This document shows positions 1,676-12,808 of a DNA stretch of 14,364 nucleotides, piece by piece. The translations under genes and the position numbers were made by a program. Position 1 is the stretch's first letter. Each line of letters begins with the position of its first letter. The notes beneath the pieces are model-generated. The model was not told where the DNA came from. It worked only from the letters and a program-made list of their open reading frames with translations, and ran no database searches. The DNA comes from Fidelibacterota bacterium (GTDB lineage Bacteria > Marinisomatota > Marinisomatia > Marinisomatales > Marinisomataceae): positions 1 to 14,364 of the forward strand of contig DTWI01000223.1 in the NCBI GenBank assembly GCA_012963075.1. The letters run 5' to 3'.

Positions 1676-1687
1676 TTACTTAAAATA

Positions 1688-3460
1688 ATGAAAACATACG
1701 AAATAGAATTAAACAGTATAACGAAAAGATTGCCAAAATATCTACATAAGTATATTATAAAGCAACCTTATGATGATTACACAGGTCAAAATCAAGCTGT
1801 TTGGAGATATGTTATGAGATCAAATGTTGATTTTTTGCAACATGTTTCATATGGTGATTTTGTAGGTGGTTTAAAAAAGACAGGTATTGCGATTGATGAT
1901 ATTCCTAGAATGGAAGGTATGAATCGTATTTTAAAAAATATTGGATGGGCTGCAGTTGCAGTTGACGGATTTATACCTCCATCAGTTTTTATGGGATTTC
2001 AGGAAAATAATGTGCTTGTAATTTCTGCAGAAATTCGTACAATAAAGCACATAGAATATACTCCTGCTCCAGATATAATTCATGAATCAGCAGGCCATGC
2101 TCCAATAATTGCTGATCCTGAATATGCTACATATTTGAAACGATTTGGTGAAATTGGTTGCAAAGCTTTTTCAAAACCACAAGATGATAAACTTTTCCAT
2201 GCAATACGTGAGTTATCAACTATCAAAGAAAATCCAAATTCATCTGAAAAATCTATTAAAGAGTCATCAGAATTAGTTGAGTTTTTACAGAATAATATGG
2301 GTGAACTTTCAGAAATGGCTAAAATTAGGAATCTTCATTGGTGGACTGTTGAGTATGGGTTAATTGGGAATATTGAAAATCCGAAAATTTATGGTGCTGG
2401 GTTACTTTCATCTATTAAAGAAAGTAAAGAATGTTTAAATAAATCGTTATCCAAATTACCATATAATGTTAATGTAGCTGAAGTTAATTTTGATATTACT
2501 ACGCCCCAGCCACAACTATTTATTACTCCATCTTTTAAATTTTTAAGTGAGGTTTTGGAGCAGTTTGTTGATAAAATGTCATTTAAAATAGGCGGCTTGA
2601 AAGGAATTCAAAATGCTATTGACTCAGAAAAAATTGGGACTATTGAATTAAGTTCAGGGGTACAGATATCAGGTATTTTTTCTAATGTTATTTCTGACAA
2701 TGGTAAACCTATTTATGTTCAAACATCAAGCCCTACAGCTTTATATGTCAATGGTGTAGAAATTCCTAATCATGGAACCGAGTATCACAAAGATGGATTT
2801 GGAAGTCCGATAGGGTGTCTTTCTTTCTATTCTGCTCTATCATTAGAAGAATGCTCAGAAGAAGATTTAGATGCGCTGGGAATCATTGTGAACAAAGAGG
2901 TTGATATTTTTTTTGAAGGAGGAATTCATGTTTCAGGGAAGCTAATAAATAAGGTGTATTATCCTGATAATAAGTACAGAAGGCTCAGAATGCTTTCATT
3001 TGAAGACTGTACGGTTACACATGATGTAGACTTTCAAAACCAGACAACATTATTCCAACCAGATTGGGGTACATATGACATGGTATTGGGAGAGAGAATT
3101 ACATCCGCTTTTTGCGGTCCAGCTTCCTATGATTCCCTTGAAGATGATGGAATTATTTTATCTAAAAAACCACCTCAAATTGAATATTCTGATAAACAAA
3201 AATTGCTTCATAATTTATACAAACAAGTAAGAATTATGAGAGATAAGAATGATATCAAAGTTGATATTTTACAAGATATTTTTCTAAAAATCGGGAATGA
3301 TTTTTCTGGTGAATGGCTATTGGTTCTTGAGATATATGAACTTTTATACAAATCAAATTTGTCCTTTGAAAAAGAATTGTTAAAGTATTTAGAATCTTTA
3401 AAAGAAAATATTCAAATTTCGAACCTGATATCAACAGGTTTAAAATTAATTAGAAAGTAA
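1688..3460 (+). CDS. pterin-dependent aromatic amino acid hydroxylase with long C-terminal extension (probable phenylalanine 4-monooxygenase)
   Basis: A 590-residue protein. The first ~295 residues are the biopterin-dependent aromatic amino acid hydroxylase catalytic domain, which uses Fe(II), tetrahydropterin and O2 to hydroxylate Phe, Tyr or Trp. The iron ligands are visible: PDIIHESAGHAP gives His132 and His137, and WWTVEYGL gives Glu222. K-I-Y-G-A-G-L-L-S-S (233-242) matches the conserved segment after the Glu ligand. There is no N-terminal ACT domain. Residues ~300-590 form an extra domain I cannot name; long forms of about this size are, to my recollection, typical of Bacteroidota, whereas proteobacterial PhhA is about half this length. 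The start at 1688 is preferred over a TTG at 1664 that lies inside the hairpin. No Shine-Dalgarno is visible, unlike many downstream genes. Phe-to-Tyr conversion is the likeliest role, given the neighbouring Phe/Tyr operon; the substrate is inferred, not shown. Confidence 0.88.
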   Translation: MKTYEIELNSITKRLPKYLHKYIIKQPYDDYTGQNQAVWRYVMRSNVDFLQHVSYGDFVGGLKKTGIAIDDIPRMEGMNRILKNIGWAAVAVDGFIPPSVFMGFQENNVLVISAEIRTIKHIEYTPAPDIIHESAGHAPIIADPEYATYLKRFGEIGCKAFSKPQDDKLFHAIRELSTIKENPNSSEKSIKESSELVEFLQNNMGELSEMAKIRNLHWWTVEYGLIGNIENPKIYGAGLLSSIKESKECLNKSLSKLPYNVNVAEVNFDITTPQPQLFITPSFKFLSEVLEQFVDKMSFKIGGLKGIQNAIDSEKIGTIELSSGVQISGIFSNVISDNGKPIYVQTSSPTALYVNGVEIPNHGTEYHKDGFGSPIGCLSFYSALSLEECSEEDLDALGIIVNKEVDIFFEGGIHVSGKLINKVYYPDNKYRRLRMLSFEDCTVTHDVDFQNQTTLFQPDWGTYDMVLGERITSAFCGPASYDSLEDDGIILSKKPPQIEYSDKQKLLHNLYKQVRIMRDKNDIKVDILQDIFLKIGNDFSGEWLLVLEIYELLYKSNLSFEKELLKYLESLKENIQISNLISTGLKLIRK

Positions 3461-3490: not shown

Positions 3491-3520
3491 TTGCCAACTG
3501 TCCAATCTATTCCGTAATAT
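3491..3520 (+). promoter_or_regulatory. candidate promoter of the aromatic biosynthesis operon
   Basis: TTGCCA (3491-3496) and TAATAT (3515-3520) are separated by 18 bases, close to the sigma70 consensus. The same bases also read CTTG-N21-TAATATTG, near the Bacteroidota-type TTTG/TAnnTTTG pattern. Either reading puts transcription start at about 3526-3530, right at the leader peptide ATG (3529). The preceding 30 bases after the hydroxylase stop are almost pure A/T. This is a pattern match only. Confidence 0.55.
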
Positions 3521-3528
3521 TGTTCAAT

Positions 3529-3588
3529 ATGAAAAGTAATAACAATTTTTACTATTATTTTAATGGAAGGGGTTATGTAGGGACCTAA
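3529..3588 (+). CDS. 19-residue aromatic leader peptide of a transcription attenuator
   Basis: This ATG-initiated frame encodes M-K-S-N-N-N-F-Y-Y-Y-F-N-G-R-G-Y-V-G-T, then stops with TAA at 3586-3588. Five consecutive codons, TTT TAC TAT TAT TTT (3547-3561), specify Phe-Tyr-Tyr-Tyr-Phe, and a further Tyr codon follows at 3574-3576. A run of codons for the end-products of the downstream operon, followed by mutually exclusive hairpins, is the hallmark of ribosome-mediated attenuation (as in pheL, trpL and hisL). The stop lies just after the 5' strand of the antiterminator, so a ribosome that finishes the peptide would cover that strand and allow the terminator to form. Stalling at uncharged tRNA-Phe or tRNA-Tyr codons would leave it free. 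No clear Shine-Dalgarno precedes the ATG; with the candidate promoter used, the mRNA would be nearly leaderless. Confidence 0.82.
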   Translation: MKSNNNFYYYFNGRGYVGT

Positions 3589-3621
3589 GGATAGGACCAT
3601 ATAAAAAACTACATGAACCCC
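3569..3621 (+). promoter_or_regulatory. antiterminator helix of the Phe/Tyr attenuator
   Basis: GGGGTTATGTAG (3569-3580) pairs perfectly with CTACATGAACCCC (3609-3621) apart from one bulged G at 3615: 12 base pairs. The loop contains a small nested helix, CCTA (3584-3587) with TAGG (3592-3595), that includes the leader peptide stop. The 3' strand shares AACCCC (3616-3621) with the 5' strand of the terminator, so the two structures exclude each other. The 5' strand is itself inside the leader peptide coding sequence, 8 bases beyond the last codon of the aromatic run. Confidence 0.82.
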
Positions 3622-3644
3622 AGTGAACCCCACTGGGGTTTTTT
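3616..3644 (+). terminator. intrinsic terminator of the Phe/Tyr attenuator
   Basis: AACCCCAGTG (3616-3625) pairs with CACTGGGGTT (3631-3640) over a 5-base loop, followed by further T residues (TTTTTT in total at 3639-3644). It is a strong, self-contained rho-independent terminator located 20 bases before the first structural gene of the operon and downstream of the candidate promoter. This is the position expected for attenuation and not for ending the hydroxylase transcript alone. Confidence 0.88.
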
Positions 3645-3664
3645 GTTATATAAAAGGGATAAGA

Positions 3665-3922
3665 ATGAACGAAAAAATTAGAACAATACGAGAAAAGATT
3701 GATGCCATTGATAAGGAAGTCTTTCAATTGTTGGTTGATCGATTAGAAGCAGTGACAGCCATTGGAGAGGTTAAAAAACAAGAGGGATTGCCAATTTTGG
3801 ACCAAAGTAGAGAAAATGCGATTTATGAAAAGATTGACTCCTTGTTTTCTGACAAAGAAGCCACGTTTTTAAAAAAGGTTTATCAATCCATTATCACCGA
3901 ATCAAAAAAGGCGGAGCAATAA
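3665..3922 (+). CDS. chorismate mutase, AroQ class, monofunctional
   Basis: A small all-helical AroQ-fold enzyme (85 residues) that rearranges chorismate to prephenate, the entry to Phe and Tyr synthesis. Residues matching the E. coli chorismate mutase domain are visible: Arg9 (in IREKIDAID), Arg26 (in LVDRLEA), Lys37 and Arg49-Glu50 (in LDQSREN). It is not fused to a dehydratase or DAHP synthase domain. The start at 3665 follows an AAGGGAT Shine-Dalgarno; an upstream in-frame GTG at 3623 is inside the terminator stem and is rejected. It is the first gene after the attenuator and lies 1 base before class II DAHP synthase. Stand-alone short AroQ proteins bind and are activated by class II DAHP synthase in Mycobacterium tuberculosis; adjacency here makes a similar partnership plausible but unproven. 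Confidence 0.93.
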   Translation: MNEKIRTIREKIDAIDKEVFQLLVDRLEAVTAIGEVKKQEGLPILDQSRENAIYEKIDSLFSDKEATFLKKVYQSIITESKKAEQ

Positions 3923-3923
3923 G

Positions 3924-5273
3924 ATGAAAAATTGGAAAAAAGATTCTTGGAAAGATTGTACAATCAAACATGTTCCTCTTTATAAAGATCAAGAGAAGCT
4001 TGATAAGATTCTTGCACGATTGAATACCTTTCCACCATTAGTATTTGCTGGAGAGTGTAATAATCTAAAGATACAATTAGCCAAAGCAACAGAACGCAAA
4101 GCATTTTTAGTACAGGGAGGGGATTGCGCAGAAAGTTTTAAGGAATTTTCTGCCAATAATATTCGAGATACGTTTCGTGTGCTTTTGCAGATAAGTGCAG
4201 TCATTACTTCTGAAATGAAGGTACCCGTGATTAAACTAGGACGTATTGCCGGTCAATTTACAAAACCGAGATCTTTAGACACAGAAACTGTGAATGGAAC
4301 GACCTTAAATAGCTATTATGGAGATTCTGTAAACGGGATAGAGTTTACCAAAGAAGCAAGAGAACCTGATCCAGAACGTTTGTTGCGTACCTATTCTCAA
4401 TCTGCTTCTACCTTGAATTTATTGCGATCTTTTGCCCAAGGAGGGTTTGCCAATTTACGTAAGGTGAATTCATGGAATATGGGATTTGTTAGGAGCAGTA
4501 AAGAAGGAAAGAAATACGAGAAAATTGCACACCAGATTACAGAGTATTTAGATTTTATGGATGCGGTCGGGATTAATACCGAACAAATAATTGATTTAAA
4601 TACCGTTGATTTTTATACCAGTCATGAAGGGTTGCATTTACCTTATGAAGAGGCATTAACCCGTGTCGATTCGTTATCGAACAAAATCTATTGCACATCA
4701 GCCCATTTTATTTGGATTGGGGATCGAACCCGATTTATTGACAGTGCACATGTGGAGTTTTGTCGTGGGATTAGCAATCCAATCGGAATCAAATGTGGGC
4801 CATCATTAGATCCAGATGAATTAGTCAAGATTATTGATGTATTAAATCCCGACAATGGAGCTGGAAGAATATCACTAATCTTCCGATATGGAGAAAAAAA
4901 TATCAATCAACATTTACCGGTTCTAGTAGATACAATTAATAAACATAACAAAACGGTATTGTGGATTTCAGATCCAATGCATGGGAATACGGTTAAATCT
5001 TCAAAAGGGCTTAAAACAAGAGACTTCTCAGCTCTTTTAAATGAAACCACCAAAGCCATTCATATTTTAAAGTCAAAAGGGTCCCATTTAGGAGGCATTC
5101 ATCTCGAGATGACAGGGCAAAATGTTACCGAATGTACCGGCGGATTATATAAGCTTAGTGATAAAGATTTGCACTCAAGATATCATACTCATTGTGATCC
5201 TCGATTAAATGCTAATCAAGCGTTAGAGCTTTCTTTTAATATTGCAGCAGAGATGGAGAAAAATGGCCATTAA
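3924..5273 (+). CDS. aroF: 3-deoxy-7-phosphoheptulonate synthase, class II
   Basis: First committed step of the shikimate pathway: phosphoenolpyruvate plus erythrose 4-phosphate give DAHP. The 449-residue protein is of the class II (plant and mycobacterial) type, unrelated in detail to E. coli AroFGH. The metal ligands expected for that class are all present: Cys68 in QGGDCAESF, His353 in SDPMHGNT, Glu395 in HLEMTGQNVTEC and Asp425 in THCDPRLN. The conserved KLGRIAGQFTKPRS (104-117) and CGPSLDPDEL (291-300) segments are also visible. The start follows the chorismate mutase stop by one base, with an AAGGCGGAG Shine-Dalgarno inside the end of that gene. The 3' end overlaps aroA by 11 bases. The symbol is a convention; class II enzymes are also called aroG or aroA-II. 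Enzyme identity is secure. Confidence 0.95.
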   Translation: MKNWKKDSWKDCTIKHVPLYKDQEKLDKILARLNTFPPLVFAGECNNLKIQLAKATERKAFLVQGGDCAESFKEFSANNIRDTFRVLLQISAVITSEMKVPVIKLGRIAGQFTKPRSLDTETVNGTTLNSYYGDSVNGIEFTKEAREPDPERLLRTYSQSASTLNLLRSFAQGGFANLRKVNSWNMGFVRSSKEGKKYEKIAHQITEYLDFMDAVGINTEQIIDLNTVDFYTSHEGLHLPYEEALTRVDSLSNKIYCTSAHFIWIGDRTRFIDSAHVEFCRGISNPIGIKCGPSLDPDELVKIIDVLNPDNGAGRISLIFRYGEKNINQHLPVLVDTINKHNKTVLWISDPMHGNTVKSSKGLKTRDFSALLNETTKAIHILKSKGSHLGGIHLEMTGQNVTECTGGLYKLSDKDLHSRYHTHCDPRLNANQALELSFNIAAEMEKNGH

Positions 5274-6510
5274 TACTACTATTTCTTTACCAGGAGATAA
5301 ATCTATCTCTCATAGAGTATTGATGTTAGCATCTATTGCAGATGGGGTAAGTGAAATTACCAATCTCAATGATGGAAAAGATGTACAATCAACCATGCAA
5401 GCTTTGCAAGCATGTGGTGCTTCTATTGAGCAAAATGGAGAAAAAGTTGTCATCACGGGAAAAAAGCTTAGCAATCCTGATGAACCCATTGATTGTGGAA
5501 ATTCAGGGACAAGTGCAAGATTATTATCTGGGTTCTTGTCCTCCCAACGTCTTCAATTTTCGTTGACAGGAGATGCTTCTTTATCTACAAGACCAATGAA
5601 CAGAATTATTGTCCCACTTACAGAAATGGGGTGTACTATTGAATCCAACGATGGATTGCTTCCATTAACAATAGATGCATCGAATTCATTAAATGGAATT
5701 AACTATAAAATGCCTGTGGCGAGCGCTCAAGTAAAATCATCTATTTTGCTAGCAGGATTAGGAGCAGAATCATCGTCTAATGTTTCGGAGTTAAACAATT
5801 CACGAGATCATACCGAAATTATGTTACAGAACATGGGTGCAACCATTTTGGTAAACGACAATGATATCAGAGTGGAACCGCTTTCATCACCATTGACTCC
5901 TATCAGTTTGGACGTTCCAGCTGATCCTTCTTCTGCATCATTTTTTATTGCATTAGCAATCTTGTCAAAAGATTCAAAAATTATCGTTCGTAATATGTTG
6001 CTTAATCCAACCCGTATTGGATTTATGAATGTATTGGAGAAAATCAATATTCAGACCAATATATCCAATCAACATTATATTCATGGAGAATTATGTGGAG
6101 ATGTTGAGTTTATTTCATCGCCAATTAATAGTTTTGAGGTCCCAGCCTACATTATTACGTCGATTATTGATGAAATACCAATTTTAGCGGTTTTGGCTGT
6201 ATTTGGAGATGGTAAAACCATCTTTAACCGAGTAGAAGAATTAAAATTTAAAGAAAGCAATCGTTTGCAAGCGATTATAGATAATCTGAAGAATTTTGGG
6301 ATTAATGCCTACGAAGAAGATAATAGTCTTATCGTAGAAGGTGGTCATCCAACTATGGCAACAGTACAATCTTTTGATGATCATCGTATTGCAATGGCAT
6401 TTATTGTGTTGAGTATTGTCGCATTTGGGGAATATGAGATTGATAATAAGGAATGCATCAATATCTCCTTACCGGGATTTTTTAACACAATTGAGGTGAT
6501 GCTATCATGA
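5263..6510 (+). CDS. aroA: 3-phosphoshikimate 1-carboxyvinyltransferase (EPSP synthase)
   Basis: Sixth shikimate step: shikimate 3-phosphate plus phosphoenolpyruvate give EPSP. The protein has 415 residues. The chosen ATG (5263) has GGAG 4 bases upstream and yields the canonical LPGDKSISHR start with Lys13 and Arg18; an upstream TTG at 5242 would add residues not seen in the family. Other motifs are DCGNSGTSAR (77-86), STRPMNR (108-114), PVASAQVKSS (151-160), DEIPILAV (303-310), KFKESNRL (328-335) and FDDHRIAM (371-378), covering the substrate-binding residues. The RPM segment and overall divergence from the enterobacterial form suggest a class II-like enzyme, but this cannot be settled by eye. 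It overlaps DAHP synthase by 11 bases and aroE by 4 (ATGA), indicating translational coupling. Confidence 0.96.
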   Translation: MAINTTISLPGDKSISHRVLMLASIADGVSEITNLNDGKDVQSTMQALQACGASIEQNGEKVVITGKKLSNPDEPIDCGNSGTSARLLSGFLSSQRLQFSLTGDASLSTRPMNRIIVPLTEMGCTIESNDGLLPLTIDASNSLNGINYKMPVASAQVKSSILLAGLGAESSSNVSELNNSRDHTEIMLQNMGATILVNDNDIRVEPLSSPLTPISLDVPADPSSASFFIALAILSKDSKIIVRNMLLNPTRIGFMNVLEKINIQTNISNQHYIHGELCGDVEFISSPINSFEVPAYIITSIIDEIPILAVLAVFGDGKTIFNRVEELKFKESNRLQAIIDNLKNFGINAYEEDNSLIVEGGHPTMATVQSFDDHRIAMAFIVLSIVAFGEYEIDNKECINISLPGFFNTIEVMLS

Positions 6511-7334
6511 AATTAGGATTAATAGGAACTCCAGTGCATCAAAGTATTAGTCCAGAGTTACAAAAAATTCTTTTTGATACCTTCAATTTGGAAGGTTGTA
6601 CCTATGAAAAGAATGACATTTCTTCCGAGGAACTATCTTCCTTTTTTGATGCTTTTAAGGCAGGAGCGTTTGATGGAATCAATATTACCATTCCACACAA
6701 AGAACATGGTTTAGAGTTTGTCGATGAATTGGATGAAAGTGTGAAAATCTTAGGCAATGCGAATTGTATTACAAGAAAAGGGAACAGCCTAAAAGGGTAT
6801 AATACCGATTTATATGGATTTGAAATGATGCTCCACCATAATGATATTAGTGTGGAATCAAAACACTGTCTTGTATTGGGTGCAGGGGGATCTTCTAAGA
6901 CGATTGTAAAAGCATTAATTGATGGGCATGCAGCATCCATTACTATCAAAAATAAATCAATGGAAAATGCATTAAGAATACAAGCATATGCACAAGCAAT
7001 TTCTGACATAGATATTCAGATATTTGATAAAGCTGACATCAAATTTGATTTGGCAATTAATACCACACCACTTGGAATGTATCAACAAGATGATAAAGAT
7101 GATTTTTTTAATATTCCTATACATCAAGAAAGTATTCTTATTGACTTGATCTATACATCCAATCACACGCTTTTCTTGGACAAATACAAAGATAATGTCA
7201 AGCAGTCTATTAATGGATTGGATATGCTAATATTTCAAGCGCTGAAGTCTATTGAAATTTGGACAGAAACTACTTATAATGTGGGCCCAAAACTGGATTC
7301 GATCAAAAAACAATTGGAGAACGTATTATGTTGA
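6507..7334 (+). CDS. aroE: shikimate dehydrogenase
   Basis: Reduces 3-dehydroshikimate to shikimate with a nicotinamide cofactor. The 275-residue protein shows the shikimate-binding pocket (S-I-S-P at 13-16, NITIPHK with the catalytic Lys65, NAN at 84-86, GYNTD with Asp101) and a Rossmann loop GAGGSS (125-130), then NTTPLGM (185-191) and NGLDMLIFQA near the C-terminus. The NRT motif that usually recognises the NADP 2'-phosphate reads NKS here (149-151), so cofactor preference might be altered. The start uses the ATGA overlap with aroA and a GAGGTGAT Shine-Dalgarno about 6 bases upstream; the 3' end overlaps aroC by 7 bases. Confidence 0.95.
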   Translation: MKLGLIGTPVHQSISPELQKILFDTFNLEGCTYEKNDISSEELSSFFDAFKAGAFDGINITIPHKEHGLEFVDELDESVKILGNANCITRKGNSLKGYNTDLYGFEMMLHHNDISVESKHCLVLGAGGSSKTIVKALIDGHAASITIKNKSMENALRIQAYAQAISDIDIQIFDKADIKFDLAINTTPLGMYQQDDKDDFFNIPIHQESILIDLIYTSNHTLFLDKYKDNVKQSINGLDMLIFQALKSIEIWTETTYNVGPKLDSIKKQLENVLC

Positions 7335-8488
7335 AAAAAATATCATACATGACTGCAGGAGAGTCACACGGAAAAGGATTAATTGGGATTATAGAAGGGA
7401 TTCCGGCTGGAATGCATCTTACCGAAGAGTATATTGCCAAAGATCTGTTTAGAAGAATGCAAGGGCACGGTAGAGGCAAACGTATGAAAATCGAAAAAGA
7501 TTATGCCGAAATTTTTTCAGGCGTGCGCCATGCAATCACATTGGGTTCACCAATTTCATTATTAATTAAAAATTTGGATTGGGTAAACTGGGAAGATAGG
7601 ATGGCCATTGGGATACCTAAAAAAGAGCATAAAAAAGTTACCATGCCTCGTCCAGGACATGCCGATTTAGCTGGGGTCATGAAGTATGGTTTTGATGATA
7701 TTAGAAATGTATTAGAACGTTCTTCTGCACGAGAAACAGCAATGCGAGTTGCTATTGGTGCGGTTTGTAGAAGATTATTGGAAGAAGTAGGGATTACAGT
7801 TGGTAGCCGTGTTTATCAAATCCATAATGCGATAGATAAAACACCTGTTGAAGAAAATACTAATCTTGAAAAATTAAACGAAATAGTAGACAAATCTCCT
7901 GTTAGGTGCCTTGATAAGAAAACAGAGGCAAAAATGATTGCAGTAATTGATAAAGCAAAAGAAAATGGAGATTCTGTAGGAGGTTCATTTGAGGTTATTG
8001 CTAACGGGTTACCTTATGGACTTGGTAGTTATATTAACGCGGACGGAAAATTACAAGCACGTATTACACAAGCAATGATGTCTGTGAATGCATTTAAAGG
8101 TGTAGAAATAGGGGCTGGATTTGCTTCAGGGGCAATTTTTGGTAGTGAGCTACATGACGAAATACTCTATGAAGATGAAAAAATCACTCGATCAAGCAAT
8201 AATGCTGGTGGAATTGAAGGAGGCATGAGTAATGCACAACCAATTCATGTGAAGGTAAGCATGAAACCGCTATCAACCCTTATCAAACCACTTCGATCTA
8301 TTGATTTAAATACAATGGAACCAAAATTAGCACACAAAGAAAGAACAGATTCTTGTGCAGTGCCTGCTGCATCTATTATTGGTGAGAGTATGTTGGCAAT
8401 TGTGCTAGCGGATGCATTGTTGGAGAAATTCGGTGGTGATAGTTTAGAACAATTAAAAAAACACATAAAAAGCAGTGGAAAATATTAA
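7328..8488 (+). CDS. aroC: chorismate synthase
   Basis: Last common-pathway step: anti-1,4-elimination of phosphate from EPSP to give chorismate, requiring reduced FMN. The length of 386 residues is normal for the family. Conserved segments are GESHGKG (11-17, with the catalytic His14), RRMQGHGRGKRM, RPGHADL with KYGFDDIRN, ERSSARETAMRVA, and the C-terminal ERTDSCAVPAASIIGESM signature. The start at 7328 overlaps the aroE stop by 7 bases, with GGAGA 8 bases upstream. No fused flavin reductase domain is present, so it would be the monofunctional form that depends on cellular reduced flavin. The last 14 bases overlap aroK. Confidence 0.96.
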   Translation: MLKKISYMTAGESHGKGLIGIIEGIPAGMHLTEEYIAKDLFRRMQGHGRGKRMKIEKDYAEIFSGVRHAITLGSPISLLIKNLDWVNWEDRMAIGIPKKEHKKVTMPRPGHADLAGVMKYGFDDIRNVLERSSARETAMRVAIGAVCRRLLEEVGITVGSRVYQIHNAIDKTPVEENTNLEKLNEIVDKSPVRCLDKKTEAKMIAVIDKAKENGDSVGGSFEVIANGLPYGLGSYINADGKLQARITQAMMSVNAFKGVEIGAGFASGAIFGSELHDEILYEDEKITRSSNNAGGIEGGMSNAQPIHVKVSMKPLSTLIKPLRSIDLNTMEPKLAHKERTDSCAVPAASIIGESMLAIVLADALLEKFGGDSLEQLKKHIKSSGKY

Positions 8489-8984
8489 TCAAATCTTTTT
8501 AATAGGCATGATGGGTTCTGGAAAGTCTTCTACGGGAAAAGCATTAGCAGATTCTCTGAATTGGACATTTTATGATATCGATAATGAACTAGAAAAGGAT
8601 CATAATTTATCAATAAGTGATATGTTTGTGAATGGAGAACCTCAATTCCGTGAACAGGAAACAAAAAAATTAAAAGAAATAGCATTAAAAGATTGTATCG
8701 TGTGTTCTACAGGTGGAGGAATTATCCTAGATGAATCAAATCATGAGATACTAAAACAATCATTTTGTGTGTATTTATATGCTTCAATTGATAGTCTTTG
8801 TCAGCGATTAGAAGATGATGATTCAAGACCGTTATTATCGAACGGGAATAAACATGAAGTATTGCAAAATATTTTTGAGAATAGGCAATCTAAATATGAA
8901 GCATTATCAACGATAAAAATAGATACCGATAATTCTTCTATAGAAGACAATTGTGAAACAATAACCAAACAGATCAATGGATAA
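8475..8984 (+). CDS. aroK: shikimate kinase
   Basis: Phosphorylates shikimate at the 3-hydroxyl using ATP. The 169-residue protein is a P-loop kinase with Walker A GMMGSGKS (11-18), shikimate-binding Asp34/Asp36 in FYDIDNE, Arg59 in FREQE, STGGG (78-82), Arg118 in the lid segment SRPLL and Arg137 near the adenine site. The start is a GTG at 8475, inside the end of aroC; the next Met codons fall within the P-loop, so no shorter start is possible. No strong Shine-Dalgarno is visible, so translation is probably coupled to aroC termination. The 3' end overlaps aroB by 8 bases. Confidence 0.94.
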   Translation: MENINQIFLIGMMGSGKSSTGKALADSLNWTFYDIDNELEKDHNLSISDMFVNGEPQFREQETKKLKEIALKDCIVCSTGGGIILDESNHEILKQSFCVYLYASIDSLCQRLEDDDSRPLLSNGNKHEVLQNIFENRQSKYEALSTIKIDTDNSSIEDNCETITKQING

Positions 8985-10044
8985 GATAGTAAAAGTTGAT
9001 TTAGGAAAAGATAGCTATAATATTAGCATTGGAAATAGTTTTGTAGATGCTATCAAGAGCAAAGTTGAAGAATCCAATTCTAAATGTATTCTTATTACAC
9101 AAAAAGCTATTTATGATGCATTTGAAAACAAATTTTCTGAGTTAGAATCTTTAGGGATTGATATTCACTTTATCGGCGAAGGAGAGGATGCTAAATCTAT
9201 TGATACAGTAATTACAATCTGTGATAAAATGTCAAGCTTAGGCTACAATCGTTCTTCTACTATTTTTGCAGTAGGTGGAGGGGTTGTTGGTGATGTTTCA
9301 GGATTTGTTGCATCAATTTTTATGAGAGGAATCAATCATATTCAATTTCCGACAACCTTGCTAGCGATGATTGATTCGGCTATTGGAGGAAAAACTGGTG
9401 TGAATCTGAAAAACGGAAAGAATTTAATCGGAAGAATCCATCAACCAAGTGAAGTTATTATTGATACATCTTTTTTAAGTACATTGCCTAAAAGAGAGCT
9501 CAATGCATCCTTAGCAGAAGCAATTAAATATGGCTTTATTTATGACAGAGATTTGTTTGATTGCCTCGTTACCAACTTTAATGATATTCTTGAATTAAAA
9601 GACGATACAATGCTTGAGAAAATTATTCTCAGATCTTGTGAGATTAAAGGTGAAGTAGTTAGCCAGGATGTGAATGAAAATGAATTAAGAATGATTTTGA
9701 ATTTTGGTCATACCGTTGGGCATGCGATAGAAGCATATTTTGATTATAAAAAATTATTGCATGGAGAAGCTATCGTACATGGGATGAAATGTGCACTTTA
9801 CTTGTCAAACAAGATAAATAATTTAAATGAGTCTGACTATAATGCAGCGATTGATGCACTCTCTTTGTTTGCATTGCCTCCAATAGTTATTGAGGATAAA
9901 GATAGACTTATTGATTTTGTTAAAAGGGATAAAAAATTTAAAGAATCTCAAATAAGATTTGTTTTAATTCCCCAGATTGGAAATGTAACAATTAGTAAAG
10001 AAATAACGTTGGAAGATATTAAAGAAAGTCTAAGTGTCTTATGA
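8977..10044 (+). CDS. aroB: 3-dehydroquinate synthase
   Basis: Second shikimate step: NAD- and metal-dependent cyclisation of DAHP to 3-dehydroquinate. The 355-residue length is normal. The NAD-binding AVGGGVVGDVSGFVAS (98-113) and FPTTLLAMIDSAIGGKTGVN (124-143) segments are clear. The metal ligands expected by comparison with the E. coli enzyme are Glu181 (SLAEAIKYG), His245 (NFGHTVGHA) and His262 (LHGEAIVHGM). The ATG at 8977 lies within the end of aroK, and the stop TGA shares bases with the next start (ATGA). It is monofunctional, not part of a pentafunctional AROM fusion. Identification is secure. Confidence 0.96.
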   Translation: MDKIVKVDLGKDSYNISIGNSFVDAIKSKVEESNSKCILITQKAIYDAFENKFSELESLGIDIHFIGEGEDAKSIDTVITICDKMSSLGYNRSSTIFAVGGGVVGDVSGFVASIFMRGINHIQFPTTLLAMIDSAIGGKTGVNLKNGKNLIGRIHQPSEVIIDTSFLSTLPKRELNASLAEAIKYGFIYDRDLFDCLVTNFNDILELKDDTMLEKIILRSCEIKGEVVSQDVNENELRMILNFGHTVGHAIEAYFDYKKLLHGEAIVHGMKCALYLSNKINNLNESDYNAAIDALSLFALPPIVIEDKDRLIDFVKRDKKFKESQIRFVLIPQIGNVTISKEITLEDIKESLSVL

Positions 10045-10469
10045 AGATAATTATAGTTAATGGACCCAATTTGAATCTACTAGGCGAAAGAGAGCCAGAA
10101 ATTTATGGTTCTGAGACCTTGCATGAGATTAATGATTGGATTAAAAACCATGATGTTTGCCAAAATCTCGATTTAGAGTTTTTCCAATCAAATTCTGAAG
10201 GTGCAATCATTGATTTTCTTCATTCTAAAAGAGAAGAAGTTGATTATTTGGTAATCAATCCTGGGGCATTAACCCATTATTCTTATGCGCTTAGGGATGC
10301 GATTGTTGGTACAGATATCAAGGCTGTTGAAGTTCATTTATCTGATATCTATAATCGAGAGAATTTTAGAAAAATTTCGGTCATTAAAAGCGTTTGTTTA
10401 ACTCAAATTTTTGGTGAGGGAAAACAAGGATATATAACAGCAATTAAACACATATTGGAGAAAAGATGA
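10041..10469 (+). CDS. aroQ: 3-dehydroquinate dehydratase, type II
   Basis: Third shikimate step: trans-dehydration of 3-dehydroquinate to 3-dehydroshikimate. The 142-residue protein belongs to the small flavodoxin-like type II family, which forms dodecamers. Visible are NGPNLNLLGEREPEIYG with Arg17 and the catalytic Tyr22, QSNSEGAIIDFL (49-60), NPGALTHYS with Asn73 and the catalytic base His79, and VEVHLSDIYNRENFR with His99 and Arg106. It is joined to aroB by an ATGA overlap with no clear Shine-Dalgarno, and to the next gene by another ATGA overlap. The symbol aroQ here means dehydroquinase and should not be confused with the AroQ-fold chorismate mutase at the head of the operon. Confidence 0.95.
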   Translation: MKIIIVNGPNLNLLGEREPEIYGSETLHEINDWIKNHDVCQNLDLEFFQSNSEGAIIDFLHSKREEVDYLVINPGALTHYSYALRDAIVGTDIKAVEVHLSDIYNRENFRKISVIKSVCLTQIFGEGKQGYITAIKHILEKR

Positions 10470-11041
10470 AAAAGGTAGGCGTCCAAGGGCTAGAAGGAAG
10501 TTTTAGCGAACAGGCAGCAAAATTTTATTGTGATAAATTTAATATTAATGATTTTGAGTTGGACTATTTGGTAAGCTCAATGAATGTATTAGATAGTTTA
10601 AGTGATAAGAAGATTGATGTGGGTATTTTTGCAATGGAAAATGCTCAAGGAGGTGTTGTAATAGAAAGCGTAGAAGCGTTGGCAGAGAATAAATGTAAGA
10701 TTGTTGATATGTTTTATGTAGAAATCAGTCAAAACCTTATGGCAAGAGATAATATATCTCTTGGAGAAATTGAAGAGATACATTCTCATGAGCAGGCGTT
10801 AAAACAGTGTAAAGATTATCTTGCTGAAAAGTTTTGGTCCAAAAAGCTTGTAGAAACGGATGATACTGCAAAATCTGCTCAAGATCTTTCTTTGGATAAA
10901 TTGTCAGATAATGTTGCCGTAATTGCAAGCAAACAATGTGCAGAAAAGTATGGATTAAATATTATTGAACATGATATTCATGATTTGAAGAAAAATTTAA
11001 CATTGTTTCTTGCAGTAGAGAGGTTGGATACAGATGAATAA
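10466..11041 (+). CDS. pheA: prephenate dehydratase-like protein without ACT domain
   Basis: The 191-residue protein covers only the periplasmic-binding-like prephenate dehydratase catalytic domain, which aromatises prephenate to phenylpyruvate (or arogenate to Phe). Family features: GVQGLEGSFSEQAA (5-18), FAMENAQGGVVIES (55-68, in place of the usual ENSxEG), HSHEQALKQC (106-115), DTAKSA (133-138) and AVIASKQCAEKYGL (151-164). The usual C-terminal T-R-F motif reads Thr179-Leu180-Phe181: the key Thr is kept, but Arg is Leu. The feedback ACT domain is absent. Being in this operon argues for a real role in the Phe branch, but arogenate dehydratase or a decarboxylase of the BacA kind are alternatives. 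GGAGA precedes the ATG at 10466; the 3' end overlaps tyrA by 8 bases. Confidence 0.82.
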   Translation: MKKVGVQGLEGSFSEQAAKFYCDKFNINDFELDYLVSSMNVLDSLSDKKIDVGIFAMENAQGGVVIESVEALAENKCKIVDMFYVEISQNLMARDNISLGEIEEIHSHEQALKQCKDYLAEKFWSKKLVETDDTAKSAQDLSLDKLSDNVAVIASKQCAEKYGLNIIEHDIHDLKKNLTLFLAVERLDTDE

Positions 11042-11750
11042 AGTTAGCATTATCGGTTTTGGACGTTTCGGAAATTTGTTATATGAATTATTGCAAAAAG
11101 GATTTGAAGTAAACGTATTTGATATTGATTCTAACAATGAAACCGAATCAGTCCATTTTGTTTCTTTGGAGGATGTATTAAAAAATGATACCATTTTTTT
11201 AGCAGTACCTATAAGAGACTTTGAAGAATTAATGAAAGATCTTTCCACGAAGATACAAGGAAACAAAACAGTTATTGATGTTTGTTCTGTAAAAGTATAC
11301 CCGAAAAATATGATGGTAGAACATTTATCCAACGAGGTTGATATTATTGCAACCCATCCGTTATTTGGGCCTGATTCTTTTCAAGAACGGGGTTCAGTAA
11401 TGATGATGGAAAAAGTGCGAGATCAACATGATCGATATGATTTTTGGAAATCTTATTTCCAAAGTCAGAACATTATTATAGAAGAAATTACTGCTGATCA
11501 GCATGATATGATGGCAGCCAAATCACAGGGTCTTACTCACTTGATTGGACGGGTAATAGACGATTTTGGAACCCAAAAAACAAATATTGATACGGTTGGA
11601 TATCAGGCATTGCACAAGTTGGTTAGTCAGACTTGTAATGATTCTTGGGAATTGTTTGAAGATATTCAAAAATTTAATCCTTATACCGAGTCTATGATTA
11701 CTGATCTTAATCAGAGTTTTAAAAGAATAGTTGATAGTTTAGGAAAATAA
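11034..11750 (+). CDS. tyrA: TyrA-family prephenate/arogenate dehydrogenase, short plant-like form
   Basis: Oxidative decarboxylation of prephenate to 4-hydroxyphenylpyruvate, or of arogenate to Tyr. The 238-residue protein has a Rossmann loop GFGRFG (8-13) with Asp30 at the end of the second strand, suggesting NAD rather than NADP. It continues with DVCSVK (82-87, Ser85), THPLFGPDS (107-115, His108 in the catalytic position) and GLTHLIGR (166-173). The segments from DVCSVKVYPKN to THPLFGP and from NIDTVGYQALHKL to CNDSWELF resemble the plant arogenate dehydrogenase class more than E. coli TyrA. There is no chorismate mutase or ACT domain. The start at 11034 overlaps the previous gene by 8 bases. 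It is the last gene of the operon; its stop abuts the terminator. Family is secure; substrate is open. Confidence 0.87.
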   Translation: MNKVSIIGFGRFGNLLYELLQKGFEVNVFDIDSNNETESVHFVSLEDVLKNDTIFLAVPIRDFEELMKDLSTKIQGNKTVIDVCSVKVYPKNMMVEHLSNEVDIIATHPLFGPDSFQERGSVMMMEKVRDQHDRYDFWKSYFQSQNIIIEEITADQHDMMAAKSQGLTHLIGRVIDDFGTQKTNIDTVGYQALHKLVSQTCNDSWELFEDIQKFNPYTESMITDLNQSFKRIVDSLGK

Positions 11751-11780
11751 AAAAAGGGCTAATTTACTAGCCCTTTTTTT
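11751..11780. terminator. bidirectional intrinsic terminator between convergent operons
   Basis: GGGCTA (11756-11761) pairs with TAGCCC (11768-11773) over a 6-base loop. A5 precedes and T7 follows, so it reads as a terminator on both strands. It starts directly after the tyrA stop and lies 17 bases beyond the stop of the convergent lipoprotein gene, serving both transcripts. Confidence 0.92.
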
Positions 11781-11797
11781 ATTTAACCTTTAGTTAT

Positions 11798-12808
11798 TTA
11801 TCCATCAGTACCGCGAGGAGTATCTCCTTCATTGTATACATGGAATGGAAAAGCCAATACTGAAGAGTAGTAATCCACATCAGAATCTAACATAGTACCA
11901 AAGTCCAAAACACTAAAATACATTTTTAATGGACGTCTATGTTTTGAATCGCTACCAGCACCTTTAGGAACTTTGAGACGTCTAACGAATACGTTATCGT
12001 ATGTTATTGTTCCATCGTCCGCTTGAACCCCATCACGAAGGCCTCTTCGTGCTTTATGTTTTTTGTGCTTTCCTATATGTAGATTTACTGCTTCACCACT
12101 TCTGAAGTCTAAAATAGGATCGCTATTAGAAACACTTACTTCAATACGGAAAGATTCTCCGATAGCAAGTTTTGGCATACTTTCTTTATCTATTAGGCTG
12201 GTATCAGACGCATTTAAGGTATATACTGCTTCATCAGAATCCATTGGAGTATAAATTCGTACTTCATCAACAGATAATTTTGATCCAGCTCCACCAGTTC
12301 CGATACTAACGGCAGTAATACGCCATACATATCCATCAGGATTTTCAGCATTATCTTTCTTTTCAAGTCGTGCTCGTTTTACAAAAGTTTCACTGAAAGC
12401 TTTTTCAAAAGAATCAATCTCTTCATGACTTTCTTTGTTGTATGCTTTTGCATAGAATGTTCCTGATTGGGTTTGAGTAATAGTTGCAATTGCTACATCA
12501 CAATCTGTACAATCAAATTGTATGTCTCTTGTTCTATCCTCAACTTTTCTTCCAAATCTGAAAACAGCAGAACCATCGGTAGGGAATGGATCTATTCTAG
12601 ATGATGTAAAGTCCATATCATATAGTGTTTCATCATAATCTTCATCTTGTAATCCATCATCGTCTATTGCATCCAAACCAATCATTTCGTCTTGGTTAAT
12701 TGCTGCCATCATCTTCAAGTAATCTGCATGTGAGTAATTCATTCCATTGTCTTCACATGAGACAACAAATAGAGTTACAAGTAATAAGGTTAATAGTTTT
12801 TTCATCAT
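11798..12808 (-). CDS. lipoprotein of unknown function (SBBP not recognised), acidic N-terminal linker
   Basis: A 336-residue predicted lipoprotein. The N-terminus has a basic start, a hydrophobic segment and the lipobox V-V-S-C with the lipidated Cys18. Asp/Glu are strongly enriched at residues 46-66. A CxxC pair (Cys100, Cys103) follows in FDCTDC. The middle contains beta-rich sequence, and a basic patch with H-K-K-H-K lies in the second half. I do not recognise a named domain. GGAGG lies 8 bases before the first ATG of an ATG-ATG pair (12803-12808); either Met could start. It is the last gene of the - strand cluster, starting 24 bases after the stop of the repeat lipoprotein, and shares with it a short post-lipobox pattern (acidic residue, Met/Tyr, then A-A-I near residue 35). 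The mature protein would be membrane-anchored in the periplasm or at the cell surface. Confidence 0.8.
   Translation of the reverse strand: MMKKLLTLLLVTLFVVSCEDNGMNYSHADYLKMMAAINQDEMIGLDAIDDDGLQDEDYDETLYDMDFTSSRIDPFPTDGSAVFRFGRKVEDRTRDIQFDCTDCDVAIATITQTQSGTFYAKAYNKESHEEIDSFEKAFSETFVKRARLEKKDNAENPDGYVWRITAVSIGTGGAGSKLSVDEVRIYTPMDSDEAVYTLNASDTSLIDKESMPKLAIGESFRIEVSVSNSDPILDFRSGEAVNLHIGKHKKHKARRGLRDGVQADDGTITYDNVFVRRLKVPKGAGSDSKHRRPLKMYFSVLDFGTMLDSDVDYYSSVLAFPFHVYNEGDTPRGTDG

Follow-up and report, generated by a model that had tools for sequence, protein, structure and literature searches.

Leader-peptide attenuation is a textbook form of bacterial gene control. In the enterobacterial pheL/pheA and trpL/trp systems, a leader preceded by a Shine-Dalgarno sequence senses one amino acid with the help of a 1:2 pause hairpin, and in the multivalent attenuators of ilvGMEDA and thrABC one leader reads several amino acids for a multi-product operon. 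The aroR leader of Corynebacterium glutamicum, located before aroF (DAHP synthase), has a Phe-Tyr-Phe run and is described as acting through ribosome stalling (PMC11802643, citing Neshat 2014). Leaderless leaders have also been described. The transcript of Sinorhizobium meliloti trpL begins at the leader AUG (PMC7298713), and the account of Streptomyces lividans names eight leaderless leaders, including trpL and leuL, with none for Phe or Tyr among them; it also includes an ilvL (PMC8079986). For larger aromatic operons, Table 7 of PMC1173090 gives predicted attenuators in Bacteroides (pheA>hisHb>aroA-aroQ>tyrA) and in Desulfovibrio (...tyrA>[trp operon]). The main text of that paper never uses the term leader peptide.

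Here we analyzed a 14,364-nt stretch of DNA (the window) from Candidatus Marinimicrobia (Fidelibacterota, FCB group), in which a first-pass annotation had placed an attenuator with a Phe/Tyr leader before an aromatic operon. Like pheL and trpL, the element has regulatory codons, a predicted 2:3 versus 3:4 switch and a stop placed to mask region 2, but it lacks a 1:2 hairpin, a Shine-Dalgarno sequence and an Rfam match. Unlike the ilv and thr attenuators, which serve branched-chain amino acids or Thr/Ile, it is aromatic, and the content of its leader shifts between lineages with operon content. It shares with aroR a Phe/Tyr leader peptide, a DAHP synthase operon and, as proposed here, ribosome stalling, whereas aroR is actinobacterial, has a shorter run and is reported to show no response to Tyr availability, the relevant part of PMC11802643 mentioning no Trp version. 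If it starts as predicted, our element would resemble in its leaderless start the S. meliloti and S. lividans leaders, which belong to other phyla and, in the accounts cited, include none for Phe or Tyr. The supraoperon attenuators of PMC1173090 likewise precede large phe/tyr(/trp) operons, but as set out there they are database-predicted alternative hairpins. A word-based search, mostly at title and abstract level and in largely non-subscription literature, returned no leader peptide or attenuator in Marinimicrobia, no leader reading Phe, Tyr and Trp together, and none whose codons track operon content. Within that scope, the annotation's suggestion that such an element was undescribed holds for Marinimicrobia; mixing of Phe and Tyr codons over an aromatic operon is known from aroR (PMC11802643). 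The more unusual features appear to lie beyond the annotated coordinates: the leaderless look, the leaders elsewhere that carry Phe, Tyr and Trp, and the Trp codons that seem to come and go with trp genes.

The locus and its operon

Sequence identity of the window's class II DAHP synthase is 94% with the homologue in Ca. Marinimicrobia Ct9H_300m.P24 (L001) and 72-87% with those of L002-L013, bearing out the suspected FCB-group host (phylum Fidelibacterota). Ten close-packed genes follow the leader in the order CM-DAHPS-aroA-E-C-K-B-Q-pheA-tyrA (Table 1). Since their ORFs overlap or are separated by 1-2 nt, a single transcript is likely. Pfam assignments agree with the annotation that one element stands before the whole shikimate pathway plus both terminal branches.

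On the upstream side, a gene for a biopterin-dependent aromatic amino acid hydroxylase (1685-3457) adjoins the leader promoter. This gene is missing upstream of the L002 leader, which is adjoined instead by the end of the window's next upstream gene, the second before the leader, which we take to be carbamate-kinase-like. At the other end of the operon, a weak Rfam match to L20_leader on the minus strand (11740-11838; 27.3 bits against a gathering threshold of 58.7) is perhaps merely the operon-end terminator region.

Table 1. Positions of the leader, its predicted regulatory parts and the operon genes within the window
Feature	Position	Strand	Basis or remark
-35-like hexamer TTGCCA	3491..3496	+	consensus match
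-10-like hexamer TAATAT, 18-nt spacer	3515..3520	+	ends 8 nt before ATG 3529
Leader ORF MKSNNNFYYYFNGRGYVGT, 19 sense codons and TAA, no Shine-Dalgarno	3529..3588	+	conserved in L001-L013
Regulatory codons Phe-Tyr-Tyr-Tyr-Phe (TTT TAC TAT TAT TTT)	3547..3561	+	sequence
Region 2, antiterminator 5' strand GGGGTTATGTAG, within leader ORF	3569..3580	+	predicted to be masked by ribosome at stop (footprint model)
Region 3, antiterminator 3' strand CTACATGAACCCC, overlaps terminator 5' arm at AACCCC	3609..3621	+	pairing, covariation
Intrinsic terminator hairpin (3:4) AACCCCAGTG...CACTGGGGTT, T-tract to 3644	3616..3640	+	sequence, covariation
Second AACCCC, in terminator loop	3626..3631	+	folding
Chorismate mutase type II, operon gene 1	3665..3922	+	Pfam PF01817 4.4e-19
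Class II DAHP synthase	3924..5273	+	PF01474 5.3e-196
EPSP synthase (aroA)	5251..6510	+	PF00275
Shikimate dehydrogenase (aroE)	6507..7334	+	PF08501
Chorismate synthase (aroC)	7328..8488	+	PF01264
Shikimate kinase (aroK)	8475..8984	+	PF01202
3-Dehydroquinate synthase (aroB)	8977..10044	+	PF01761, PF24621
3-Dehydroquinase type II (aroQ)	10041..10469	+	PF01220
Prephenate dehydratase (pheA)	10466..11041	+	PF00800
Prephenate dehydrogenase (tyrA), final operon gene	11034..11750	+	PF02153 2.6e-15

Leader peptide and helices

The annotated frame proved correct to the base: 19 codons from the ATG at 3529, with the five aromatic codons, an extra Tyr codon (TAT, 3574-3576) and the TAA stop at 3586-3588. 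In all 13 close relatives (L001-L013), a Phe/Tyr leader with its aromatic run is kept at the same place together with the stop, both mutually exclusive helices and compensatory changes; their peptides include MKNFFNYYYFRSRGTVEA, MSKFYNYYFYFRSGGTVDV, MNNFYNFYFYFERRGTVGA and MKNFNYYYFYFRCKGTIGA. The sole indel within the ORF among 19 aligned elements is one whole codon (3 nt, in frame), and indels after the stop are of 1-2 nt. The extra Tyr codon, codon 16, is present in the window, L001 and L002. Stalling there would favor termination, which counts against the attenuation reading.

The antiterminator of 12 bp with one bulged G and the terminator with its T-tract were confirmed, as was the AACCCC that they have in common. 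RNAfold of 3529-3650 gave -34.0 kcal/mol (z -2.41), and 3 of 200 shuffles were equally stable. Standard pairs fill 93.7% of the antiterminator cells in the 19 aligned elements (slid controls, 26-49%), with compensatory changes in 2 of 10 pairs, G-C/A-U at columns 49/85 and C-G/A-U at columns 47/87, the latter columns being unpaired in 11 of the 19 sequences. The terminator is paired in 99.4% of cells (slid controls, 25-74%) and has compensatory changes in 3 of 9 pairs. These counts of compensatory pairs were matched by 341 of 500 shuffles for the antiterminator and 76 of 500 for the terminator; the covariation score and the percentage paired were matched by none of the 500 for either helix. 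Covariation is thus found in both helices and the shared strand is kept in the relatives, but since the sequences are related, we take it as supportive and not as proof. Outside the window clade, 16 leaders (classes B and C and one of class D, as defined below) have the same layout, in which GGGG pairs with CCCC in the terminator arm, and one compensatory antiterminator pair, G-C in 10 and A-U in 5 of the 16. A consensus fold of these leaders recovered only 3 terminator pairs.

The AACCCC in the terminator loop can pair with GGGGTTT into a 7-bp hairpin (-8.9 kcal/mol) that uses the same T-tract and is possible even when the antiterminator has formed. According to this folding, antitermination in the window should be leaky, which complicates the picture. 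AACCC-like counterparts occur in L007-L010 and are absent from L011-L013. A strong 1:2 pause hairpin, of which the annotation had already seen no sign, was not found: where the aromatic codons lie, the window fold shows just a weak hairpin of 6 bp, of which no counterpart was seen by eye in the relatives.

Survey of the phylum

Our strict detector looked for a small ORF with at least 4 aromatic codons in 6, or 2 Trp codons in 6, followed by a terminator that starts 11-59 nt past the stop. Elements were found in 82 of the 111 phylum genomes with fetched upstream regions, 73 of them by the strict rule, one as a duplicate sequence (G057) and eight by eye (G101, G195-G199, G213, G218). The 81 elements used below are distinct DNA sequences, many from close relatives, and a further detector match (L165) was removed by hand beforehand. 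The 29 genomes without an element include contig-cut cases and fifteen of G161-G183, these having no pheA match; inspection of G155-G157 and G159 revealed no element. Across 245 genomes, class II DAHPS was found in 82, pheA in 139 and trpE-type matches in 132 (57 over the cut-off). Beyond the collected elements, the detector gave 12 matches in the fetched DNA, which amounts to 2.70 Mb with both strands included. We rejected coincidence, as this background rate is too low for a chance element exactly before an aromatic operon.

Predicted promoter and leaderless start

No Shine-Dalgarno sequence was found in the 18 nt preceding the window ATG, and the predicted promoter would place the transcription start at about 3527-3529, i.e., at the leader start codon. 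A promoter-like pair (TTG...N16-19...TANNNT) ends 5-9 nt before an in-frame leader start in 53 of the 81 elements; in 100 shuffles the mean was 1.3 and the maximum 4. Both the scan and its shuffles admitted every in-frame start, as choosing the last ATG masked the layout in the SWYWFF group. L011-L013 and the aro leaders of G050 and G054 did not pass this rule. Among the 81 leaders, an SD-like motif was present in only one. Considering the position of the -10-like box in 53 elements and the lack of a Shine-Dalgarno sequence in 80, most leaders look leaderless. A GGAGG precedes the chorismate mutase gene in L003-L013.

Ribosome position and folding

That a terminating ribosome would mask the 5' strand of the antiterminator, as annotated, agrees with the footprint geometry, since region 2 lies inside the footprint of a ribosome at the stop codon in 80 of 81 elements. 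In our model, the ribosome leaves RNA available for pairing starting 13 nt beyond the first base of the codon in the A site. With the A site at codon 10 or earlier (through F Y Y Y), the window antiterminator forms with P 1.0 before region 4 is made; at codon 11 its GGGG/CCCC half is lost, and from codon 13 it is entirely lost. In the full window transcript, antiterminator and terminator are near balance for codons 7-10 (terminator P 0.35-0.55), and later positions give a terminator P of 0.97-0.98. Since the window terminator is only about half displaced at equilibrium with the ribosome on the run, its switch would have to be kinetic or partial.

Across the 81 elements, at least half of the terminator 5' arm was sequestered in 78 when the ribosome stood on the first aromatic codon, in 76 when it stood on the middle one, in 48 on the last and in 2 at the stop codon; without a ribosome this held for 68. 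With no 1:2 hairpin and the arm so often sequestered without a ribosome, an untranslated leader would default to read-through. At the first aromatic codon, the sequestered fraction of the arm was 0.67, and shuffles averaged 0.44; the window alone did not stand out from its shuffles, 27 of 50 of which reached its value. Similarly, 63 of 81 elements ranked in the best tenth against shuffles by antiterminator-stage energy, and the window did not (matched or beaten by 4 of 30). In full-transcript equilibrium, a stall flipped the terminator in 14 of 81 elements at the first aromatic codon and in 9 at the last. Equilibrium folding was dropped as proof of a switch because the terminator wins in most full-length transcripts; for the same reason, the order of folding must matter.

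Trp codons and trp genes

We sorted the elements by operon: class A has the CM-DAHPS... operon without trp; class B has pheA first, without trp; class C has trpE and pheA on one strand of a single contig, no more than about 8 kb apart, or has trpA immediately preceding pheA; class D is the remainder, with trpE first and pheA unlinked or unplaced (several of its operons are cut by contig ends, namely those of G169, G190, G184, G130, G039, G203 and G017, and that of G185 runs into N). With lists A, B and C assigned by hand and the other genes of class C members checked only in part, Trp was present in the leader run of 0 of 19 class A elements, 3 of 15 in class B (G129, G094 and G008, which retain Trp codons without trp genes in the operon), 26 of 26 in class C, each with at least two Phe/Tyr codons, and 21 of 21 in class D. 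Leaders before trpE carry Trp in 47 of 47 cases, five of which were admitted by the Trp rule alone (G016, G014, G210 and G017 in class D, G182 in class C); elements in this position could enter by either the aromatic rule or the Trp rule, so a leader without Trp would also have been picked up.

The Phe/Tyr codons vary in class D. Where trpA is the final recognized aromatic gene, five leaders have essentially Trp-only runs, i.e., G016 (NRWWKN), G014 (NQWWKRY, with one Tyr), G210 (NNWWWE), G213 (QNWWWE) and G218 (NWWWQ). G181 and G125 are exceptions, their operons also being trp-only and their leaders nonetheless having F/Y, as does that of G185 though its pheA is far from trpE. F/Y together with W was found where other aromatic genes follow trpA: class I DAHPS (Pfam), aroA and aroE in G033; the same order in G032, with class I DAHPS called by likeness of size and place; a DAHPS-like ORF (class I by Pfam in G195, similar in G197 and G199), a TyrA-like ORF (by BLAST in G195 and G197, by eye in G199) and aroA in G195, G197 and G199; and DAHPS II, aroA, aroE and aroC in G108. 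G054 has two attenuators in tandem: a trp operon with the leader KTWKWYF runs into a second one without Trp, FNYYYFYF, which precedes CM-DAHPS. The presence of Trp codons in a leader therefore appears mostly to follow that of trp genes in the operon.

Two attenuators per genome were seen in G054, G052, G055, G050 and G004 (L244, L248, L255-L257), with a GTG-start W/Y/F leader preceding the trp operon and the aro operon having a Phe/Tyr leader of its own. No trpE match was found in G001 or in window-clade members outside these five, all small draft genomes. The DAHPS match in G050 (C1) holds many stops (6 TGA, 2 TAG, 8 TAA), and pheA in G001 (C4) holds three, from sequencing error or decay.

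Remnants of trpE and trpA lie between leader and pheA in three genomes, with three different break points. In G094 (L131), TrpE residues 1-28 are fused in frame to TrpA 172-254; in G129 (L174), TrpE 1-38 is followed by TrpA 224-255 in another frame; and in G103 (L268), TrpE 1-7 and TrpA 248-254 are matched over 7 residues each, with E 1e-4 and 6e-3 in a search of 18 proteins. A chimeric assembly is possible in any single genome, less so for three different break points. The run is YYSWYWFF in most intact relatives and in G129, YYSGYWFF in G094 and YLNLFYFF in G103. Aligned TGG positions hold GGG (G094), TTG (G008, G101) and CGG (G101). The G101 leader reads SLYRFF and the G114 leader SWYWFF.

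We also counted independent contrasts, with the Trp labels of class B assigned by hand. A DAHPS-only tree (48 rows) gave 4 supported contrasts, 3.4 for and 0 against, for which p cannot reach 0.05. Since these were too few, a PheA-TyrA-DAHPS tree was built for 30 B and C genomes (PheA in 27, TyrA in 27). Its supported branches force at least 6 changes in trp presence, and of 6 contrasts, 5.4 have Trp codons changing along with trp genes and 0.0 have them changing the opposite way (median p 0.06, range 0.03-0.125). Both trees counted G130, in class D by a contig break and with linkage unproven, as trp-bearing. Without it (29 rows), there are at least 7 changes and 7 contrasts, of which 5.9 follow, 0.0 oppose and 1.1 show no difference (sign test, median p 0.031, range 0.031-0.0625). 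The sign test for Trp codons tracking trp genes is thus marginal.

Proposed mechanism and alternatives

The 2:3 versus 3:4 logic of the first-pass annotation finds computational support in leader conservation, covariation, the exclusive helices and stop geometry, and we put the probability that the element is a ribosome-mediated transcription attenuator for aromatic amino acid biosynthesis at about 0.9. From features of the sequences, i.e., the leader and its stop, both helices, their covariation, promoter spacing, the match of codons to operon and the trp remnants, we infer the following stalling, read-through, start site, kinetics and order of losses. RNA polymerase would start no more than about 2 nt away from the leader AUG, and a ribosome would load on the leaderless mRNA and follow closely. 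When Phe- or Tyr-tRNA is poorly charged, the ribosome would stall with its A site on codons 7-10, and region 2, left free, would pair with region 3 before region 4 is made. The terminator would thereby be blocked and the ten-gene shikimate/Phe/Tyr operon transcribed. With adequate charging, the ribosome would reach the stop and cover region 2, so that regions 3 and 4 pair and transcription ends near 3640. In relatives with trp genes in the operon, the run adds Trp codons, and one leader would read three aromatic tRNAs; operons that no longer hold trp genes would mostly have shed the Trp codons as well, trp loss preceding codon loss.

It is possible, although in our view doubtful, that the leader senses Tyr or Phe alone and that the remaining aromatic codons are filler. 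The aroR leader offers a precedent, as Phe limitation acts on it and Tyr availability does not, according to the passage of PMC11802643 concerned, and in our alignment Phe and Tyr codons, one base apart, may interchange by drift within the run. However, both codons are present in 19 of 19 aro-operon leaders, and leaders of operons without trp genes have mostly lost their Trp codons, which argues that residue identity matters. Control by whether the leader is translated at all, in response to stress or growth, would suit the leaderless layout and the missing 1:2 hairpin, since an untranslated leader would favor read-through, but it leaves the aromatic run and its match to the operon unexplained, and we consider it improbable.

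Peptide conservation within the window clade could instead reflect a functional small protein, with the hairpins as an ordinary terminator of the upstream gene. We rejected this as very unlikely: there are 75 distinct peptides among the 81 elements, which across lineages have little in common beyond the aromatic run, and beyond the run the constraint is that of RNA region 2, where compensatory changes occur; moreover, the predicted promoter sits between the upstream gene and the ORF, and the upstream gene is not the same in the window and L002. Riboswitches, T-boxes and TRAP-like protein switches also have terminator/antiterminator pairs, and the ORF would then be incidental. A scan of the window against Rfam, including Phe_leader and Trp_leader, gave no match at E<=5 in the element region; the distance from stop to terminator is 24-43 nt in the 81 elements, with no further conserved domain visible in the alignment, and leader codons track operon content. 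A switch of this kind is scarcely credible here, and a riboswitch or T-box was rejected.

Ribosome-mediated attenuation remains the preferred reading, and it is likely that, in Marinimicrobia, one homologous, leaderless, multivalent attenuator serves as a general aromatic sensor that reads Phe-, Tyr- and Trp-tRNA jointly, and that loss or relocation of trp genes leads to point mutations that remove Trp codons. In such a sensor, with Trp codons lost after trp genes, nature would have recorded how selection acts on single regulatory codons. Each trp-losing lineage would serve as a replicate natural experiment on whether codons persist only while the operon makes the amino acid. Attenuation by leader peptides would also extend to a phylum of the FCB group for which most genomes are environmental. 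In marine MAGs, a leader of 60 bases could then reveal the logic of the operon behind it, and laboratory study would gain an attenuator that is leaderless and has no 1:2 hairpin.

Other leaders

Among 30 poly-His loci inspected, two had a leader with 5-6 His codons, a terminator 28 nt on and an ORF behind it that is presumably HisG-like. These are MKNTRRHHHHHHFHTSVGGAG (L297, ending at 1548, + strand) and MKKIQRHHHHHLLTTDGGAG (L298, ending at 177, + strand), in G014 and G015. Leader-peptide attenuation in the phylum thus seems not to be confined to aromatic operons.
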